A stretch of 64,000 bases of DNA, taken from positions 682,001-746,000 of the forward strand of contig NZ_CP018725.1 in NCBI RefSeq assembly GCF_001908725.1. The letters run 5' to 3'. Within the stretch, counting starts at the first letter, position 1, and each line of letters begins with the position of its first letter. The notes under the pieces were generated by a model. It saw only the letters and a list, made by a program, of their open reading frames with translations. It did no database searches and had not been told where the DNA came from. This document shows, in pieces, positions 25,095 to 33,750 of this stretch. The position numbers were made by a program, and so were the translations under genes. The stretch is from Xanthomonas vesicatoria ATCC 35937. Its GTDB lineage: Bacteria; Pseudomonadota; Gammaproteobacteria; Xanthomonadales; Xanthomonadaceae.

Positions 25095-27671
25095 TCAATC
25101 CTGCGTTGCCCAACGTGCCAGGTTCTGCTGGAGACGATCGATCTCTGCCCACGGGTCCTTGCGCCGACGGCGCAATTTCTCCGGCACATCCCGCAAGCTG
25201 AAGGCATCGGCGCGGTGCAGCTTGGGTAAATCCGACCACGGCAGCGGCAACGCGACCGGTGCGCCCGGCCTGCCCCGCAACGAATACGAGGCCACCGCCG
25301 TGGCGCCGCGTCCGTTGCGCAGGTAATCGACAAAAATGCGTTTGTTGCGAAAACGCTTGGTGGCCGTGGCGACGAAACGCTCCGGCTCGGACTGCGCCAG
25401 CGCGTCGGCAAAGCCCTTGGCAAAGCGCTTGGTCAGCTCCCAATCGCAGCCCGGGTTCAACGGCACCACCACGTGGAGGCCCTTGCCCCCGGACACGCGC
25501 AGGAACGACTCTAGCTCAAGCTGCGCAAGCAGCTTGCGGATATCGGTGGCGGCACGTTTGACCTCGGCAAACGGCACATCCGGACCTGGATCCAGATCGA
25601 ATACCACTCGGTCGGCAATATCCGGGCGCGCCGCGTGCGAACCCCAGGGATGGAATTCCAGCGCATTGAATTGCACCAGCTCCAGCAGCCCGGGCGCATC
25701 GTCGACCACCAGATAGTAGGCGTTGCTGCCGGTCTCTTCCTTCAGCTTGACCGAGCTGACCCGTTCCAGCCCGGCTGTGTGGTGTTTCTGAAAGAAGCAG
25801 GGTTTTTCCGCCCCATTCGGGCAACGGATGATCGACAACGGGCGACCGACAATTTCCGGCAGCACATGGTCCATCACTGCTTGGTAGTACTCCCAGACAT
25901 CGCCCTTGGTGGCGCGGATGTCGGAGTAGATCAGTTTGGCTGGGCTGGAGAGTGCTGGTAACGGCGCTGCCATCGAGGTTGATGCCAGCGGCCTGGCAGA
26001 AGCAGTCTGTGCGCTGTTGCGTCTGGACAGACGCGGTTTCGCAGCCGCCTGCTCCACAGCGGTTGCGCCACCCGACGCATCGGTGTCGCCCAGATCGGCG
26101 ATGCGCTTGTCCGGCCGCAAGCTCTTGAACGAGGCTTGGCGCAACAAGTGTTGCCCGCCAACGCCACGGTAGAACACCTCTACCACAAAGCGCGGCGCAA
26201 ACCAGGTCGCGCCGCGGAGATCGGTGTCTTCAGTGGGGATGTAGGCGGTGGGTTTGCGTCCGCCACCGTCCAGCTGCTGCGTCACCTCGCGCATCAACGC
26301 ATCGGAAAAACCGGAGCCCACCCTGCCTACGTACAGCCATCCGTGCGTTGCGTCAGGTGTCGCCAGCAATAGCGAGCCGAATCCGCTGCGGCTGCCCTTG
26401 GGCGCGGTGTAGCCCACCACCGCATATTCCTGGCTCGCCAGCTGTTTGGTCTTGCGCCAATCGTCGCTGCGGCCGCCGCGATACGGCCGGTCCGCACGCT
26501 TGGAAATGATGCCTTCGAAGTGCTGCTGGCCTGCCACCCGGAACGCCTCTGACCCATCGCCCTCCACATGCGAGCTGTAGGCAAGATGCGCGTTCGGCGT
26601 CGCAGCCAGCACCTGCTGCAAGAGCTGCTTACGTTCGACTAACGGGGCCTCGCTGATATCCACGCCATCGATATGCAGAAGATCGAACACCGCGAGCGCC
26701 AGCGGCACCTGACGCTCGCCGGACAAGGTGGCCTGCAGCAAATTGAAATCTTCCTTGGTGCCGCGGCCGGCGATCAATTCGCCATCGAGTTGTGCCGAGC
26801 GCAGGCCCAGCGACAGGATTGCATTACGAATCTCCGGGGCCTTGTCCGTCCACTCCAGCGCGTTACGCGACCACAGCCGCACTACGCCGTCGCTGATCGT
26901 CGCCAGTATCCGGTAGCCGTCCCACTTGATCTCGTGCACCCATTGCCCGCCATCCGGCGGCGCCTGGCCCAGCTTGGCGAGCTGCGGCGCGAATGGCGCA
27001 TCGTCCATCTCCGCAGCGCACGCATTGGTCAATGCAAGCGCCTGCTTTGCCCAGTGCCTGCGCTTGCCGGCGCGCGGCGCTGGCACGTGCGTAAGCGCCT
27101 TGCGCTGGGCCTTGCCGGCACCCGCACGACGGACGTCTTCCGCCGGCGCTGCGGCGACATCGGCAAGCAGATCGTCGGCCTCCAAGGTGCTCGCATAGGC
27201 ATCGTCTTCTTTGAAGAGCAGCCACTGCGGCTGCCGTGCCGGCTTTCCGGAGCGCACCAGATGCCAGCCACCCTTGAGCTTGTCGCCAAACAGTTCAAAG
27301 CGCAGATGACCCTTGGCCAACTGCGCTTCCGGGTCGCCTGCAGTCGCCCACACGCCATGATCGAACTGGGCCACATGCCCGCCGCCATACTCGCCCTTGG
27401 GGATTTCGCCTTCGAAGCTGGCGTAGTCGACCGGGTGCTCCTCCACCTCCACCGCCATCCGTTTGACCTTGGGGTCGTAGCTCGGCCCTTTCGGTACCGC
27501 CCAGCTCTTGAGCGCGTCACCTACCTGCAGGCGGAAGTCGTAGTGGCGCCTGCTGGCATGGTGCAACTGCACCACGAAGATCGCTCGCTGTCCGGCGGGC
27601 ACGGTCTTGCCAGGCTCGGGCTCGCGGGTCTTGTCGCAGCTACGCTTGCGTCGGTACTCGCTCAGGCTCAT
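25095..27671 (-). CDS. ligD: ATP-dependent DNA ligase D, PE-LIG-POL
   Basis: An 858-aa non-homologous end-joining enzyme. Residues about 30-170 are the 3'-phosphoesterase module (LHHASRRHYDFRLQ, KGEYGGGHV). Residues about 215-525 are the ligase, with the adenylated Lys in EIKWDGY (about 247) and an OB-fold end. Residues about 570-850 form the primase-polymerase, with the metal-binding DLDPGPD. The domain order is that of Pseudomonas LigD. The partner Ku is not in the window. A small DUF3606 gene sits 15 bases upstream on the same strand and probably shares the transcript. Confidence 0.96.
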   Translation of the reverse strand: MSLSEYRRKRSCDKTREPEPGKTVPAGQRAIFVVQLHHASRRHYDFRLQVGDALKSWAVPKGPSYDPKVKRMAVEVEEHPVDYASFEGEIPKGEYGGGHVAQFDHGVWATAGDPEAQLAKGHLRFELFGDKLKGGWHLVRSGKPARQPQWLLFKEDDAYASTLEADDLLADVAAAPAEDVRRAGAGKAQRKALTHVPAPRAGKRRHWAKQALALTNACAAEMDDAPFAPQLAKLGQAPPDGGQWVHEIKWDGYRILATISDGVVRLWSRNALEWTDKAPEIRNAILSLGLRSAQLDGELIAGRGTKEDFNLLQATLSGERQVPLALAVFDLLHIDGVDISEAPLVERKQLLQQVLAATPNAHLAYSSHVEGDGSEAFRVAGQQHFEGIISKRADRPYRGGRSDDWRKTKQLASQEYAVVGYTAPKGSRSGFGSLLLATPDATHGWLYVGRVGSGFSDALMREVTQQLDGGGRKPTAYIPTEDTDLRGATWFAPRFVVEVFYRGVGGQHLLRQASFKSLRPDKRIADLGDTDASGGATAVEQAAAKPRLSRRNSAQTASARPLASTSMAAPLPALSSPAKLIYSDIRATKGDVWEYYQAVMDHVLPEIVGRPLSIIRCPNGAEKPCFFQKHHTAGLERVSSVKLKEETGSNAYYLVVDDAPGLLELVQFNALEFHPWGSHAARPDIADRVVFDLDPGPDVPFAEVKRAATDIRKLLAQLELESFLRVSGGKGLHVVVPLNPGCDWELTKRFAKGFADALAQSEPERFVATATKRFRNKRIFVDYLRNGRGATAVASYSLRGRPGAPVALPLPWSDLPKLHRADAFSLRDVPEKLRRRRKDPWAEIDRLQQNLARWATQD

Positions 27672-27686: not shown

Positions 27687-27863
27687 CTACTTGCCCAGAT
27701 GGGCGCGAACGGTCGCGGCCACCGGGCCGACCTTCTCCACGGCAGCGCGCAATTCATCCGCGCTGACTCCCAGTGTCTTGGTCCAGTACTGCAACTCATA
27801 GGCTTCGTTGACGTTGATGCGGTCGCGGTCTGGCGAACCGGTGTTGCGCTTGTCATCGCTCAT
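27687..27863 (-). CDS. Small DUF3606 protein
   Basis: A 58-aa protein that reads MSDDKRNTGSPDRDRINVNE, then AYELQYWTKTLGVSADELR and ends VAATVRAHLGK. The DRxRIN-xxEAYELxYWTKxLGVSxxEL pattern is the DUF3606 signature. Function is unknown; the family is common in proteobacteria, often near stress or repair genes. The start at 27863 has AGGAG-like GGAGCACGCA upstream. It is 15 bases upstream of ligD, so a shared operon is likely. Confidence 0.85.
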   Translation of the reverse strand: MSDDKRNTGSPDRDRINVNEAYELQYWTKTLGVSADELRAAVEKVGPVAATVRAHLGK

Positions 27864-28080
27864 TGCGTGCTCCTGTTATCGTCATGGTCGGGCTTGCTGC
27901 CCTGTGGATAAGCAGGGCGCGCCTTTACGACAATGGGAAAGCGTCCGAGCAGGCTTCGTGAAAAGTCTGTTCACGCTACGTGCAAGCAGCCCTGCACGCA
28001 GCGGTCTCTCCCCGGACCGCATGCCATAATGGCGCGCGCCCTAGGGCGACGTCTCCACTCTTTTCCGAGGCCATACCTCT

Positions 28081-28482
28081 GTGAGCAATACCTCTTCGAA
28101 ACTGGATTCCATCGCGCAAGCCAAAGCCAAGCTGCTGGACGAACTGCAGAAGCTGGAAGAACAGGAGAAAACCGAGCGCGCGAGCGAGGCATCCTCTGCG
28201 CATGCCACCATCGTCTCGCTGCTCGAGCAGTTTGCCGGCCATTTCAACACCAAGCAGCGCAACGATATCGCCGCCTATCTGGGCACCACTTCCGCGCGTA
28301 AGGAAGTGGTCAAGAGCGGCCGGAGCGAAGTGAAGCCGAAGTACGAACTGCCGCACACCGGCGAGACCTGGTCCGGTCGTGGACGCACCCCGAAGGCATT
28401 TGCCGCCTGGGAAGGCTCGGTGTCGTACAAGGAATGGAAAGCCAAGAACCCGGACCTGAAGTTCCCGCTGGTTCGCGAGTAA
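28081..28482 (+). CDS. H-NS family nucleoid-associated protein
   Basis: A 133-aa protein with an N-terminal coiled coil (residues about 8-45, IAQAKAKLLDELQKLEEQEK) for oligomerisation and a C-terminal H-NS DNA-binding domain. The latter has PKYELPHTGETWSGRGRTPK, which holds the AT-hook-like GRGRTP core, and ends SYKEWKAKNPDLKFPL. H-NS proteins silence AT-rich, often horizontally acquired DNA. The start is GTG at 28081. It lies only 86 bases before tRNA-Ala and the lower-GC island; whether it silences that island is an inference. Confidence 0.93.
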   Translation: MSNTSSKLDSIAQAKAKLLDELQKLEEQEKTERASEASSAHATIVSLLEQFAGHFNTKQRNDIAAYLGTTSARKEVVKSGRSEVKPKYELPHTGETWSGRGRTPKAFAAWEGSVSYKEWKAKNPDLKFPLVRE

Positions 28483-28528
28483 TTCATTGCGGGATTGCGC
28501 CAGTTGGCGTGGTTCGCTGCCGGTTGCC

Positions 28529-28558
28529 TTGGCGAACCGTGCGGCATGTGGTTAGAAT
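28529..28558 (+). promoter_or_regulatory. Promoter of tRNA-Ala
   Basis: TTGGCG (28529-28534) and TAGAAT (28553-28558) are separated by 18 bases and end 10 bases before the tRNA. This fits a sigma-70 promoter. Confidence 0.6.
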
Positions 28559-28568
28559 CGAAGCACGT

Positions 28569-28644
28569 GGGGCGGTAGCTCAGCTGGGAGAGCGTCGCGT
28601 TCGCATCGCGAAGGTCGAGGGTTCGATCCCCTTCCGCTCCACCA
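28569..28644 (+). tRNA. tRNA-Ala (anticodon CGC)
   Basis: A 76-base tRNA. The acceptor 5' strand GGGGCGG pairs with CCGCTCC, with one G-U pair. The anticodon stem-loop TCGCG-TTCGCAT-CGCGA presents CGC at positions 34-36, and the T-arm is GAGGG-TTCGATC-CCCTT. The CCA end is encoded. It reads GCG alanine codons. Its 3' end is the likely attachment site of the element downstream. Confidence 0.96.
28622..28644 (+). repeat. attL, tRNA 3' end
   Basis: TTCGATCCCCTTCCGCTCCACCA is the last part of the tRNA-Ala gene. Its TTCG and CCTTCCGC blocks recur with the same spacing at the right end of the island. Confidence 0.55.
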
Positions 28645-28671
28645 TCTTTCCGTCCTAGACGGTGCAAACCA

Positions 28672-28712
28672 GGCCAGAAAGCCCTGCAGAATTAGGCTTT
28701 CCGGCCTTTTTT
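28672..28712 (+). terminator. Terminator after tRNA-Ala
   Basis: GGCCAGAAAGCC and GGCTTTCCGGCC pair almost fully around an 11-base loop, followed by TTTTTT. It lies inside the element, 28 bases past the tRNA. Confidence 0.85.
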
Positions 28713-28817: not shown

Positions 28818-30032
28818 ATGCCTCTCACCGATACCACCATCCGTAAAGCAAAACCCACCGCCACGCCCCAGAAGCTGCGCGACGGCAACGGCCTGTATCT
28901 ACTACTACGACCCGACGGCGCACGCTGGTGGCGCTACGACTACCGCCGCCCGGTCACTGGCAAGCGGAATACTCTGTCATTCGGCACCTACCCCGAAGTG
29001 AGCCTCGCAGATGCACGGGAGAAGCTGGCGGAAGCACGTCGGCTGCTTGCGGCCAAGGTAGACCCAGGCGAACAGCGAAAGGCCGTCAAGGCCGCTGGGG
29101 AGGCCGCCGCAGCGAACAGCTTCGAGGTAATCGCCCGAGAGTGGTTCGCCAAGCAGCAGAAGGATTGGAGTTCCCAGTACGCGGACAAGATCATCCGCCG
29201 CTTGCAGAGCGACATCTTTCCCTGGATCGGCAGCAGCCCCATCGCTGCCATTACCGCCCCGGAACTGCTGAAGCACTTGGAGCGAATCGAGCAGCGAGGT
29301 GCCATCGAGACAGCACACCGTGCTTTGCAGACCTGCGGCGCAGTCTTTCGATACGCGGTGCGTACTGGACGGGCCGAAGCCGATCCGACGGGCGCACTCA
29401 AGGGAGCACTGACACCCTGGAGATCCATGCCGTTCGCTGCTGCCACCACCTCAGAGGAAGCTACGACCGTGCTGCGGAAGATTGACATCAGCACCAGTCG
29501 GCCAGTGGTCAGGAGTGCCCTGCGACTGGCACCGTTGCTGTTCGCCAGACCCGGCGAGCTTGTCCGCATGAGGTGGACGGAGCTGGACCTTGATGCCGGA
29601 CAATGGCGCTACTTCGTGACCAAGACCAAGCGCACTCATATTGCGGCCCTTTCGACTCAGGCAATAGAAATTCTGCGCGACCTGCATCCTCTCACAGGGC
29701 GTGGCGAGTTCGTATTCCCTGGTGGGCGCGACCCTCGCAATCACATGTCAGGCAACGCTATTCTCGTAGCTGCGCGCCGCTGCGGTATCGAGAGAGAAGA
29801 AAGCACCATTCATGGCTTTCGGCACATGGCTAGTACGCTGCTGAACGAAATGGGCCTCTGGAACGCTGACGCAATCGAATCAGCGCTCACCCACAAGATG
29901 CCGGGAGTGCGAGGAATTTACAACCAGGCTCAGTATTTAGATGAGCGTCGGAAAATGATGCAAGCCTGGGGCGACTACATACAGGCGCTGAAATTTGATG
30001 GCAAAGCACTCACAGATAAGAAAGCAGCGTAA
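28818..30032 (+). CDS. int: P4-type tyrosine integrase with Arm (DUF4102) domain
   Basis: A 404-aa site-specific recombinase. Residues 1-85 form the N-terminal Arm-binding domain (MPLTDTTIRKAKPTATPQKL ... GTYPEVSLADAREKLAEAR). A SAM-like core-binding domain follows (about 100-190). The catalytic domain has the first Arg in ARPGELVRMRW, the HxxR box HGFRH, and the nucleophile Tyr in GIYNQAQYLDERRKMM. It should integrate and excise the surrounding island at tRNA-Ala. Its 3' end is followed 13 bases later by the gene of unknown function, with which it may be co-transcribed. Confidence 0.95.
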   Translation: MPLTDTTIRKAKPTATPQKLRDGNGLYLLLRPDGARWWRYDYRRPVTGKRNTLSFGTYPEVSLADAREKLAEARRLLAAKVDPGEQRKAVKAAGEAAAANSFEVIAREWFAKQQKDWSSQYADKIIRRLQSDIFPWIGSSPIAAITAPELLKHLERIEQRGAIETAHRALQTCGAVFRYAVRTGRAEADPTGALKGALTPWRSMPFAAATTSEEATTVLRKIDISTSRPVVRSALRLAPLLFARPGELVRMRWTELDLDAGQWRYFVTKTKRTHIAALSTQAIEILRDLHPLTGRGEFVFPGGRDPRNHMSGNAILVAARRCGIEREESTIHGFRHMASTLLNEMGLWNADAIESALTHKMPGVRGIYNQAQYLDERRKMMQAWGDYIQALKFDGKALTDKKAA

Positions 30033-30045
30033 GGAAGCCCCAAAA

Positions 30046-31032
30046 ATGAACCCCCTGATAAACATTAAGCAATCACTCTACATGCGTTGGTACGAGGAGT
30101 ATAGAGAACGCCGCTACCTCCACGGAGTGCCCGACGATATAGTGGCTCAGCGCGCCCGCGACCTGATATCCAACATACTAACCTTGGAACCCAATGGAAA
30201 AATTGGATGCGTTCAGGGCGATGCCCAGACTGGAAACTTTCTTTGGCGGCTTTTCTCTCACATTCTTGAGGAATCACGCCTTAGGACTGGGAGCCATCAA
30301 GGAATATTCATAAGATGCGGACTCAAAGACACGCCAACCCCAAAGCCCACCACTCCTAACAGCCCCGCATCTGCAGCCATCCTACGCCTACAAAAAAATA
30401 AACCCAAGGAACGCTACCTCTACAAATTCGGAGAAAGCAAATGGATGCAGGCACTGTTAGAGCGCGGAGAAATTCGCATAGCCCCAGCTTCTCTATACAA
30501 TGATGATTCACTGGGCGCAGCTATTGCAGACGACGAGCTTTCTTACGACTTAGAAACTAGCGCATTTGAGGACGACATACTTTCATTGAATCCGTTCAAA
30601 ACACGACTTATCGACACGTTTGGGCCTCCAGCATCGAAGCCACAAAAAGTAGTCATGGAGACGAATTACTACGTATGGTGCGCTAGCTTTGGCTTAAACC
30701 TCCGTCTATTCGACGACTTCAATGCTGACTCAGTATTAGTAATACGAAACGTTGGGGAATTTTCACGACGGCTACTGAAAGCACTTCAGCCTCATTTGCA
30801 TAGCTGGCGCTTCGCACCATGCGCAGTTCATTACTTTGATCCTTACCACCCATCAAGAAAGACGCAAAGTGTTTTCACTTGCAAACACTTCAAGTACCTC
30901 TATCAAGAAGAGCTTCGCTACGTCTTTCTCCCGCCAACCCCTACAAAAAACTTAACACCATTATTCCTAAAGCTTGGCCCTTTGAATGACATTGCTGAGC
31001 TTATATATAGAAATGGTCTCAAGCCGAGCTAA
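30046..31032 (+). CDS. Island protein of unknown function, weak DUF2971-like pattern
   Basis: A 328-aa soluble protein I cannot assign. Residues 1-110 are basic and aromatic-rich (QSLYMRWYEEYRERRYLHG). Near residue 125 begins RYLYKFGESKWMQALLERGE, then IRIAPASLYNDDSLGAAIAD and DDELSYD. This resembles the LYKY...LLxxGxIxfSxPxxFND pattern of the DUF2971 family, but the match is weak. The C-terminal part has FTCKHFKYLYQEELRYVFLPP, a pattern of 'xKxxxYxxExExRxv' also seen at that place in DUF2971-like proteins. Base composition is clearly AT-richer than neighbours and codons such as ATA and AGA are frequent, a sign of recent transfer. The start at 30046 has AAGGA upstream. A role in phage defence or element maintenance is only a guess. 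Confidence 0.7.
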   Translation: MNPLINIKQSLYMRWYEEYRERRYLHGVPDDIVAQRARDLISNILTLEPNGKIGCVQGDAQTGNFLWRLFSHILEESRLRTGSHQGIFIRCGLKDTPTPKPTTPNSPASAAILRLQKNKPKERYLYKFGESKWMQALLERGEIRIAPASLYNDDSLGAAIADDELSYDLETSAFEDDILSLNPFKTRLIDTFGPPASKPQKVVMETNYYVWCASFGLNLRLFDDFNADSVLVIRNVGEFSRRLLKALQPHLHSWRFAPCAVHYFDPYHPSRKTQSVFTCKHFKYLYQEELRYVFLPPTPTKNLTPLFLKLGPLNDIAELIYRNGLKPS

Positions 31033-31115
31033 GGAACGCAAGGGGCATCTTTTACGACAAAGGCAAGTACAACAACCCGTCATTGCATACAGACTCATCT
31101 GTATCGTTTTAGCCT

Positions 31116-31346
31116 TCAGTGAATCGATGCAACTCTTAAGGCCGCGAATACTACAATAAGCAAGACAACAACCCCCATCGCCACCTGAAATAAAATCAGT
31201 TGGCGCGGGTTCCTTCCAATTCTTGATGTCAATTTTCTTGAAATTAAGCTAATTACGCCAAGCAACAGCACAATAATAGGAATCGCAACTAACGTCCCCA
31301 CAGCACCTCCGTTAGAGTTTACAACTCGAAATAATTGCAAAATCAT
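31116..31346 (-). CDS. Small two-helix membrane protein
   Basis: A 76-aa protein with hydrophobic helices at about residues 16-36 (VGTLVAIPIIVLLLGVISLI) and 50-70 (ILFQVAMGVVVLLIVVFAAL), joined by a basic loop (SRKLTSRIGRNPRQ). I recognise no family. The gene is AT-rich like the preceding one and lies 12 bases downstream of the YecR-like lipoprotein gene on the same strand, so it is probably co-transcribed with it. Confidence 0.6.
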   Translation of the reverse strand: MILQLFRVVNSNGGAVGTLVAIPIIVLLLGVISLISRKLTSRIGRNPRQLILFQVAMGVVVLLIVVFAALRVASIH

Positions 31347-31358
31347 GCAAGAAAGATT

Positions 31359-31682
31359 TCATTTTTCCGGCGTCCCAATACATTGAAATTCGGCCGTTAC
31401 ACGCCTAGACCCGCAGTTCCCAAAGCCTCGACGAGATAGGCATTCGGTACTCTGCGACCCGAACGGCTCTGCCCCTTCATAACCCCAATTTCGGCACTTC
31501 TGCTCAGCGAGTTGAATTGCTTGCTGCTCGCTCAGATCAGGACGCTGGAACTCATTGCGCTCGTACGAAAGCGCGATCACACCATCTGCGCGGCTCGCTT
31601 TGGTTACCAGCCAGTCGGCGTGAGTGGCACATGCGCCGACAAGCAATACGACGGCCGCCGCAGCGCAAAACTTCAATTGCAT
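31359..31682 (-). CDS. YecR-like lipoprotein
   Basis: A 107-aa lipoprotein. The signal peptide MQLKFCAAAAVVLLVGAC ends with lipobox VGAC. The mature part matches the YecR pattern: W, SRADGVIALSYERNEFQRP, QAIQLAEQKCRNWGYEGAEPF, and a Cys-rich end GFGNCGSRRVTAEFQC. YecR is a small lipoprotein gene in the flagellar regulon of enterobacteria, with unclear function; copies are also found on phages and islands. The start at 31682 is fixed by the signal sequence. Confidence 0.8.
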   Translation of the reverse strand: MQLKFCAAAAVVLLVGACATHADWLVTKASRADGVIALSYERNEFQRPDLSEQQAIQLAEQKCRNWGYEGAEPFGSQSTECLSRRGFGNCGSRRVTAEFQCIGTPEK

Positions 31683-31844
31683 GGTGACCCCCTTTGGCGT
31701 TCGGACCCTAGTTGTACAGGGCAGTCGCAGAGCTGTCCGAGCGCTCCACCAAAGAATGATAGAAGAGCCAGGCACTAATGTCACTCATAGAGGGTGTCCT
31801 CATAGGGCGTGGCCCGATAGAGGTTGCAACTGCATCGTTCTCTC

Positions 31845-32093
31845 ATGCCAGAGAAATCGATGCCCACCGATCCACGCGTCCTGTTTGGGCTGCGACTTGC
31901 CGAGGTCCGTAAGGCCAAAGGACTCTCCCAGGAACGCCTTGCTTTGGAGAGCGGGTTGGCGCGCAGCTACCTGGGCGGCGTCGAGCGTGGTCAGCGCAAC
32001 ATCGCGCTGTTGAACATCTACCGTCTCGCCGAAACGCTGGGCGTGCATCCCACCTCGTTGCTAGAACCCCCATCTACCTCTAGCCCTGGGTAG
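31845..32093 (+). CDS. XRE-family helix-turn-helix regulator
   Basis: An 82-aa DNA-binding protein made of one HTH_3 domain: LFGLRLAEVRKAKGLSQERL, ALESGLARSYLGGVERGQRN and IYRLAETLGVHPTSLL. Nearly the whole protein is the domain, typical of small phage or island repressors and of antitoxin-like regulators. It is divergent from the YecR-like lipoprotein gene across about 160 bases, so it may control that promoter. The start at 31845 is chosen; an alternative ATG is at 31860. Confidence 0.88.
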   Translation: MPEKSMPTDPRVLFGLRLAEVRKAKGLSQERLALESGLARSYLGGVERGQRNIALLNIYRLAETLGVHPTSLLEPPSTSSPG

Positions 32094-32190: not shown

Positions 32191-32293
32191 TCGGCGCGTA
32201 CCTTCAGCACCAAGAAGTAGCAGCTTCCCATTGGTTAGTAGTAAGCACAGGAAACTGCGCGCGTCTCCTATGACCACTTACAAGGAGACAGCC

Positions 32294-33205
32294 ATGAGAT
32301 ATGACGCGGTAATGGAGCAGTTCAAACATGCTTCCACTCGCCTGATCCCACTCGGCGATATACGAACCCACGACGCTTTGCAACCACGTGTTGCCCGCTT
32401 GGTGCCGTTTAAGGACAAAGGGCGAGCCGAGGAAAGCAGCGAGCAACAAGTCGCAACGCTTCGCTTAGTACTGGAAGCGACGGAGGATAAGCAGCTTGAT
32501 CCGGTTTGGCTCGCTGACATTGGTAGCGCCGAGCCGGTAGAAACTGGCTTGTATCTGGTGGATGGTCACCACCGCCTGAGGTCTTACCAACAAGCAGGCA
32601 GACAGCAAGTTCCGGCATGTGTTCTGGCGTTAGATTGGCGGACTGCCCTGGTTGTTTCCAAACTGGTCAACTGCACCGGCAGATCGCTCGCCCTTCACAA
32701 CGAGCAGCGCCGGGACGCGGCTTGGCAGTACCTTGCAGATCTAACACATAGAGGAGCTATCGAGCTTCCTAGTGGGGAGTCATTACGCTCTGTCGCCGCT
32801 CGATTTGGCATCAGCAAGAGCACGGTAAGCAGCATGCTTACCAGTATGCCGCACGTCATCGCTGCAGAGTTCCACGCGCTGGCGATTGACCCCGGCACGG
32901 GTTGGCCGAGGTGGCGACATGTACGCGAAGCGAAGAACCCTTGGCAAACAAGCCTGCCTAGCTCGGACCAGCAGCAGCTAGACCGGGATGCAGAAAGGGT
33001 TGCGCGCCACATAGTCAAGCTCGTGGATGGCTCATCCCCAGCCGTGCGCGCCAGAGCGCTTGAGATGCTGGCGAACGACGAGGTGAATGCCACAGATCAA
33101 CTCGCATCGGTGGAGCTTCTTGCTCACTTCAGCCCACCACCATGCGGCCCTGTCCCAATTGGGACACCCGCTGTCCCAGCGCAACCGGCACATCTGGACA
33201 ACTGA
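32294..33205 (+). CDS. ParB/sulfiredoxin-domain protein of the island
   Basis: A 303-aa protein with an N-terminal ParB-like nuclease/CTPase domain: STRLIPLGDIRTHDALQPR, then LYLVDGHHRLRSYQQAGRQQ, with the DGHHR box. A middle helical part carries a helix-turn-helix (SVAARFGISKSTVSSML, about residues 170-190). Proteins of this kind occur on plasmids, phages and islands as partition-like or regulatory factors. There is no ParA next to it, so classical partition is unlikely. The start at 32294 has a strong AAGGAG at 32281-32286. A 16-bp palindrome lies near the 3' end of the gene. Confidence 0.85.
   Translation: MRYDAVMEQFKHASTRLIPLGDIRTHDALQPRVARLVPFKDKGRAEESSEQQVATLRLVLEATEDKQLDPVWLADIGSAEPVETGLYLVDGHHRLRSYQQAGRQQVPACVLALDWRTALVVSKLVNCTGRSLALHNEQRRDAAWQYLADLTHRGAIELPSGESLRSVAARFGISKSTVSSMLTSMPHVIAAEFHALAIDPGTGWPRWRHVREAKNPWQTSLPSSDQQQLDRDAERVARHIVKLVDGSSPAVRARALEMLANDEVNATDQLASVELLAHFSPPPCGPVPIGTPAVPAQPAHLDN
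33151..33166. promoter_or_regulatory. 16-bp palindrome TGTCCCAATTGGGACA
   Basis: A perfect palindrome inside the last codons of the ParB-domain gene, followed a few bases later by a further TGTCCCA half-copy at 33172-33178. Perfect 16-mers of this type often bind a dimeric regulator; it could be an operator or a ParB-binding site. Confidence 0.45.
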
Positions 33206-33411: not shown

Positions 33412-33645
33412 ATGACGACTCAACCACAGACGACACTGCCGTATCACTTCATGCGCTTGCCAGAGGTCATCGCGACCGTCGGCGTCAGCAAGTCCACGCT
33501 CTATGCATGGGCCGCTGCGGGCAAGTTCCCGAAGCCAGTACAATTCCCCGGTGGCAATATTGCGGCTTGGGTCTCCACCGAAGTGGCCGCATGGATGAGT
33601 GCAGCTGTAGACGCACGCATTGGTACGCATCGCCTAGCCGCATGA
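33412..33645 (+). CDS. alpA: AlpA-family excisionase/regulator
   Basis: A 77-aa MerR-like winged helix protein. The diagnostic segment is FMRLPEVIATVGVSKSTLYA followed by WAAAGKFPKPVQFPG and WVSTEVAAWM. AlpA of prophage CP4-57 activates integrase-dependent excision, and homologues act as recombination directionality factors of P4-type elements. Here it lies at the far end of the element from the integrase. CAAGGAAG is just upstream of the ATG. Confidence 0.92.
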   Translation: MTTQPQTTLPYHFMRLPEVIATVGVSKSTLYAWAAAGKFPKPVQFPGGNIAAWVSTEVAAWMSAAVDARIGTHRLAA

Positions 33646-33723: not shown

Positions 33724-33742
33724 TTCGGGAGCCTTCCGCCCA
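33724..33742 (+). repeat. Candidate attR, decayed tRNA-Ala 3' end
   Basis: TTCG, then CCTTCCGC eight bases on, then CCA, in the same order and the same TTCG-to-CCTTCCGC spacing as in the tRNA-Ala 3' end. Four bases (TCCA) of the tRNA end are missing. A perfect terminator follows at once, as expected for a gene end. Confidence 0.45.
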
Positions 33743-33750
33743 TTGCATCA

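Follow-up and report, generated by a model that had tools for sequence, protein, structure and literature searches.

A mobile two-domain protein of Xanthomonas vesicatoria with a DUF2971-related domain and a predicted ADP-ribosyltransferase fold

What does the AT-rich gene do that stands directly behind an integrase at positions 30046-31032 of a 64,000-nt stretch of the Xanthomonas vesicatoria ATCC 35937 genome (NZ_CP018725.1, positions 682,001 to 746,000; this whole stretch is called the window below)? An earlier reading of the bare sequence (the original prediction) had taken it for island cargo with a weak likeness to DUF2971 proteins, and plausibly for a defence gene. Our analysis demonstrated that the gene is the cargo of a mobile element. 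The C-terminal domain of its product is a distant relative of DUF2971, with a predicted ADP-ribosyltransferase (ART) fold. Tentatively, with a confidence somewhat short of even, we favour a stand-alone, mobile, two-domain ART-fold effector that would act against phages or block superinfection. The gene and the two parts of its product are as follows.

30046-31032, + strand: the gene, an open reading frame (ORF) with an ATG start, encoding a two-domain protein of 328 aa
30046-30375, + strand: conserved helical N-terminal module, residues 1-110 (from conservation and the model)
30409-31008, + strand: DUF2971-related domain with a predicted ART fold, residues 122-321 (from hhalign, the model, VIA-align and conservation)

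The C-terminal domain, DUF2971 and the predicted fold

The family alignment (118 members of 121 listed proteins) was compared by hhalign with 30 DUF2971 proteins, which were taken from genomes by PF11185. The match reached 93.0% (E 4.9e-8), and 91.7% in a repeat (E 7.8e-7, score 53.7), where 60 shuffles gave at most 13.4 and the reversed profile 18.5. With a cleaned set of 29, from which one protein of likely wrong frame (L051) was dropped, it was 92.7% (E 4.4e-7, score 55.9; 60 shuffles at most 21.4). A narrower canonical DUF2971 set (n=70) gave 60.2%. Furthermore, the DUF2971 hidden Markov model (HMM) directly matched L027 (E 5.5e-6 with the set of 30, 3.1e-4 with that of 29) and L017 (3.3e-5 and 2.2e-5) among 6,599 ORFs. 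The DUF2971 hint of the original prediction, drawn from the pattern LYKF...LLERGEIRIAPASLYND, which is indeed present in the translation of 30046-31032, therefore holds for residues ~120-321 by the profile-profile comparison with the cleaned set and by the direct HMM matches.

Family and DUF2971 share an aligned core of Y-K-F, strand-helix-strand, C-x-S, Y, K and Y-Q-x-E-x-R; in DUF2971 (PF11185), as in the family, the start follows Y-[KRH]-[YF] and the end Y-[EQ]-x-E-x-R. The last motif is Y-E-x-E-x-R in DUF2971 whereas it is Y-Q-x-E-x-R in the family, M-W-x-x-Y of DUF2971 corresponds to L-F-x-D-F, and the helical N-terminal module is an extra of the family. W78, Y81, E165, E167 and R169 were invariant in the 70 canonical DUF2971 rows (A6). 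The DUF2971 signature of W-x-x-Y with E-x-E-x-R was not found in the family, which has F-x-D-F and Q-x-E-x-R instead. PF11185 was not among the 18 Pfam families matched by any of the 118 members at E<=1, and a PF11185 search of the window's genome gave no match, so by Pfam's own cut-off the family is not a member. Judged from sequence, its placement as a sister or far branch of DUF2971, outside PF11185 as drawn by Pfam, is well supported. The searches tied the protein to no unrelated family with confidence: scans of it with Pfam and PADLOC (PADLOC-DB 2.0.0) gave 0 families at E<=10, the NCBIfam scan gave one chance row only (E 0.22), and the PDB sequence search one chance row for the family (E 1.1) and none for DUF2971.

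AlphaFold models of the gene's protein and of a canonical DUF2971 protein were obtained with a predicted local distance difference test of 95 and 94, respectively. Both had ART folds as first matches (Tpt1/KptA and DarT) at modest Z scores (4.8; 6.6) and without significant sequence similarity. A viral structure library gave no match at E<=0.001. As far as predicted structures go, the comparison with ART folds that had been suggested earlier thus proved correct, and the models favour an ART fold of the C-terminal domain. ARTs of the R-S-E type have a site of R/H - S/Y - E; their first strand carries a basic residue, and their Q/E-x-E is followed by a strand. In the 118 sequences, residue 127 was always basic (R 91, K 27), residue 287 was Q in 117, residue 212 was C in 111, and Y263, D265, K280, E289 and R291 were invariant. 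Residue 214 was S in 77, A in 25 and T in 16, and a serine is not strict there. The basic residue 127 and Q-x-E 287-289 may recall the R-S-E-type site, with the reservation about residue 214.

A sequence link of the family to DarT or Tpt1 (cleaned sets of 7/9 and 9/11 sequences, respectively) was not significant, and this test is uninformative because the positive control, DarT against Tpt1, failed likewise (1.1%). The sub-threshold matches of the family, DUF2971 and DarT to Tpt1 fell on the same Tpt1 stretch (~104-127), which the canonical set A6 covered only partly and in another register. Among the literature matches listed, none paired the terms under which DUF2971 or AbiGi would be assigned to the ARTs.

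The same evidence bears on an alternative which we regard as unlikely, though as a serious contender: an ART-fold protein that transfers no ADP-ribosyl group and, as a sensor or a modifier of nucleic acids, binds NAD (nicotinamide adenine dinucleotide) or ADP-ribose or modifies an RNA or DNA end. Tpt1 is a 2'-phosphotransferase with an ART fold, and the best structural rows were Tpt1/KptA, not protein-modifying ARTs; the variation at residue 214 is also in its favour. However, the Q-x-E is nearly invariant in the family and is not known as a feature of Tpt1. For the preferred effector, we infer catalysis, a role of the module and a part in defence: by means of the basic residue 127 and Q-x-E 287-289, the C-terminal domain (~122-321) would act on NAD or transfer ADP-ribose to a target.

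The helical module (1-110), almost only met in this family, would recognise a trigger or target or keep the enzyme in check. Its N43 and E76 were found in 118/118 members and R80 in 117/118. The original statement that the N-terminal 110 residues resemble nothing known was borne out. One protein of genome G290 (L154, 748-1845) has the module without the C-terminal domain in frame (HMM E 2.4e-6, 11,132 ORFs); among 385 genomes of its class the module was found only in L154, which is itself in the query alignment. By eye, the L154 module follows a nuclease-like region with a D...E-x-K pattern.

A cargo gene in an exchangeable slot

The ORF is a real gene under purifying selection, as indicated by a pN/pS of 0.21 against the intact copy of a genome of the same genus (G004). 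Its ATG is preceded by AAGGAAG 8 nt upstream and, 13 nt before it, by the integrase stop codon (30030-30032). There is an alternative in-frame TTG at 29995; close homologues start at or after the ATG. The GC content is 47.0% (48% at third codon positions), while 987-nt stretches of the window have a mean of 64.2% (standard deviation 3.9), and 30001-31000 is the lowest-GC 1-kb step of the window. The AT-richness claimed for the gene was therefore confirmed. That its composition differs from all neighbours was not, since a short ORF at 31116-31346 has an even lower GC content (41.6%). The surrounding features are:

28569-28644, + strand: tRNA-Ala (anticodon cgc; ARAGORN), the integration target, directly after which the element begins and homology stops
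28818-30032, + strand: tyrosine integrase (Arm-DNA-bind_3, Phage_int_M, Phage_integrase)
29995-31374, no strand: exchangeable cargo slot from the integrase end to the YecR-like gene, defined by the break of backbone homology
31116-31346, - strand: short AT-rich ORF of 76 aa, membrane-like or hydrophobic by eye, convergent to the gene within the same slot
31359-31784, - strand: YecR-like lipoprotein of the element backbone (PF13992)
31824-32093, + strand: helix-turn-helix regulator of the backbone (PF01381)
32231-33205, + strand: helix-turn-helix or ParB-like protein of the backbone (weak sub-cut-off Pfam matches; conserved in L139, L140 and L143)
33412-33645, + strand: AlpA-like regulator of the backbone (PF05930)
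33732-33746, no strand: right junction, where the unbroken match to the tRNA 3' end is the first 8 bases (CCTTCCGC) only

In 30/35 same-genus genomes, the best match to 27700-28700 stopped at 28644-28646, the 3' end of the tRNA-Ala. Homology resumed at 33732 in six of them (L111-L115 and L117); in many others it resumed at ~33824 or was not seen within 1.5 kb. The stop at the tRNA and the resumption at 33732 give an element of ~5.1 kb. An exact attachment-site repeat of at least 14 nt was not found within the window, and in a plasmid DNA search with the element no record covered 80%, the rows shown being the tRNA or short pieces.

To the right of the slot, the backbone in three genomes (G020, G011 and G004) had 88.6-90.5% DNA identity to the window. 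At L139 and L140, backbone homology broke at 29994 and 29978 and resumed at 31375 and 31381, respectively, with other ORFs between: one of 253 aa in L139 and one of 166 aa in L140. The G004 element (L143) holds a 74% relative of the gene. Because this slot is occupied by different genes in two same-genus genomes that share the backbone, the gene is cargo of the mobile element. The expectation of an AT-rich cargo behind the integrase was thus borne out by the empty sites and by the other cargo. Between the window and G004, dS was 0.15 for the ParB-like gene vs ~2.0 (near saturation) for the cargo gene, indicating that the cargo has not shared the history of the backbone. No family was found for the short ORF at 31116-31346, and tblastn with it at E<=1e-4 was empty in L139-L145, including the G004 element. 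The slot proteins of L139 (1563-2324) and L140 (1587-2087) look lipoprotein-like and membrane-like by eye, respectively, and neither has a Pfam match. Outside the element, 25095-27671 (- strand) looks by eye like a DNA ligase D gene.

Distribution and genomic company

A single-sequence search found 30 database proteins at E<=1e-3, the query itself among them, and a profile of 25 found at least 305 at E<=0.01 when the best 7998 candidates (most shared words) were scored. Homologues outside the island are thus plentiful. They include a 74% identical X. oryzae protein and range over Planctomycetota, Acidobacteriota, marine Gammaproteobacteria and viral contigs, a range which argues against a secreted effector aimed at the plant host, a reading we hold to be highly improbable. 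Within the genus, 3/35 genomes have the gene (the G007 copy is broken), and the family profile has matches in 11/398 genomes of the phylum, in some of them across the C-terminal half alone. Three plasmid records had a family match; phage records had none. A Xanthomonas populi copy (L145, 4284-5249) is broken.

The tree was built from 37 proteins, the window's and those of 36/47 loci, leaving out 11 that were partial or broken. Seven changes were needed for Pseudomonadota (at least 3 by the starred branches), a pattern consistent with horizontal transfer though no proof of it. Halomonas L012 stood beside Vibrio L013 with support of 100/100 and short branches (0.058 and 0.059), suggesting a recent transfer.

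The surroundings of the family gene were read at 47 loci of named genomes and at 6 loci of viral contigs. The gene lies between terminase and portal genes in L197 (and by eye in L196), behind the gene of a minor tail protein in the tail modules of L199 and L200, and near a tape-measure gene in L201 and L009. When defence matches were inspected one by one (10 proteins of 6 loci), type IIG restriction-modification (L005, L011), GajA of Gabija (L021) and an OLD/AriAB-like ATPase (L032, best E 6.7e-27) were confirmed as neighbours; L006 has methylase and helicase neighbours with weaker matches. At least 4/39 loci scanned have confirmed defence neighbours. The swappable slot, the prophage morphogenesis modules and the occasional known defence neighbours are our grounds for an anti-phage or superinfection-blocking role, in which the effector would be spread by prophages and islands and directed against phage.

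One observation weighs against this role: no conserved partner appeared among the neighbour families of the 47 loci, where the largest other cluster covered 6/47 at scattered distances and strands. PADLOC at 1e-6 gave 166 families from 128/168 near ORFs at 39/47 loci, against 11 families from 119/135 ORFs in 31/35 control regions of other genomes (best mad3, 1.5e-33). These counts overstate the difference because single proteins match many families (58, 54, 35 and 12 for four inspected proteins). With so weak a control, a defence-gene neighbourhood is suggestive only. As for the cargo defence gene of the original prediction, the cargo part stands; the defence part is not established, prophages, island and some defence neighbours speaking for it and the missing partner against it.

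The prophage positions could also be read for a selfish or lysogeny gene, which we think quite unlikely: one whose benefit goes to the prophage or element (through maintenance, satellite-helper interplay or counter-defence), not to host defence. The gene sits inside prophage late-gene modules and in a small integrase-AlpA element, and the share of loci with a confirmed defence gene nearby, 4/39, is modest. However, the same backbone also exists with different cargo, so the element can do without the gene, and no integrase family appeared among the 25 of 114 families listed for the 128 near ORFs of the 39 loci. The company of the gene also bears on a further reading, in which it would encode the toxin of a toxin-antitoxin pair and an adjacent gene the antitoxin, so far unrecognised. 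ART folds are found among such toxins (DarT), and L198 has an OLD-like gene, named by eye, 24 nt downstream of the family gene; yet the scattered neighbours of the 47 loci hold no conserved adjacent partner, and this explanation is improbable.

A DUF2971 gene adjoins the family gene in 3/53 loci (L199, L010 and L003) and is a neighbour in 0/35 control regions; with 350 kb of control sequence vs 779 kb, this comparison is not decisive alone. PF11185 was found at 27 places in 200 whole genomes (26/200 sampled genomes of the phylum), and the three neighbours exceed what this rate suggests. In L199 (7887-9684), a prophage tail module, the family gene converges with a canonical DUF2971 gene at a distance of 91 nt. 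Both genes look broken in Lysobacter (L003, 9276-10775), and in Catenovulum (L158, 3168-6966) a relative lies two genes from a DUF2971 gene.

AbiGi and other known systems

Seven AbiGi-like proteins matched the DUF2971 set at 71.3% by hhalign and the cleaned set at 73.9% (E 2.8e-5); without a Paenibacillus protein that is annotated DUF2971 and matched by the AbiGi query, it was 60.8% (score 36.6; 60 shuffles at most 16.4). The DUF2971 HMM found 2/7 of them at 14.8 and 12.8 bits in a search of the seven sequences. Such comparisons give moderate support to a possible link of DUF2971 and AbiGi (PF10899). Family and AbiGi-like proteins had no direct signal (0.4%). AbiGi searches found no match in phage records, and none with L202 in plasmids. 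The proteins of L205, L203 and L206 may belong to a DUF2971 superfamily; in L206, a Sphingobium plasmid, the AbiGi-like gene stands beside an AAA ATPase and a helicase.

It is conceivable, though we think it doubtful, that DUF2971, AbiGi and the new two-domain family belong to one superfamily, so far unrecognised, of mobile effectors with an ART fold that act against phages. In this branch, the helical module would be a trigger sensor, which may also be paired with a nuclease-like domain in place of the ART-like one. We rate the chances of this slightly lower because the AbiGi link weakens to 16.1% with the canonical DUF2971 set (n=70). DUF2971 is common in bacteria, and the literature searched names it in one paper, within a list of corrected genes, and PF11185 nowhere. 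If its fold is that of an ADP-ribosyltransferase, standard NAD assays become a way to test a widespread uncharacterised family, and the AbiGi link, if true, would offer a biochemical hypothesis for a long-described abortive-infection gene. The family itself adds a separate branch, which has a sensor-like module of its own and is borne by prophages and a small integrative element.

Lactococcal AbiG consists of two genes, whereas the family gene stands alone; on its own, AbiGi caused no toxicity in E. coli according to one report (PMC3985639). A counterpart of the predicted role is CmdT, the mRNA ADP-ribosyltransferase of the CmdTAC anti-phage defence (PMC11618068), likewise an ART effector, though CmdTAC has antitoxin and chaperone partners. 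In mobile spread over prophages and satellites, the family resembles the Tai systems, which are described from phage-inducible chromosomal islands, prophages and P4-like satellites (PMC11364771).
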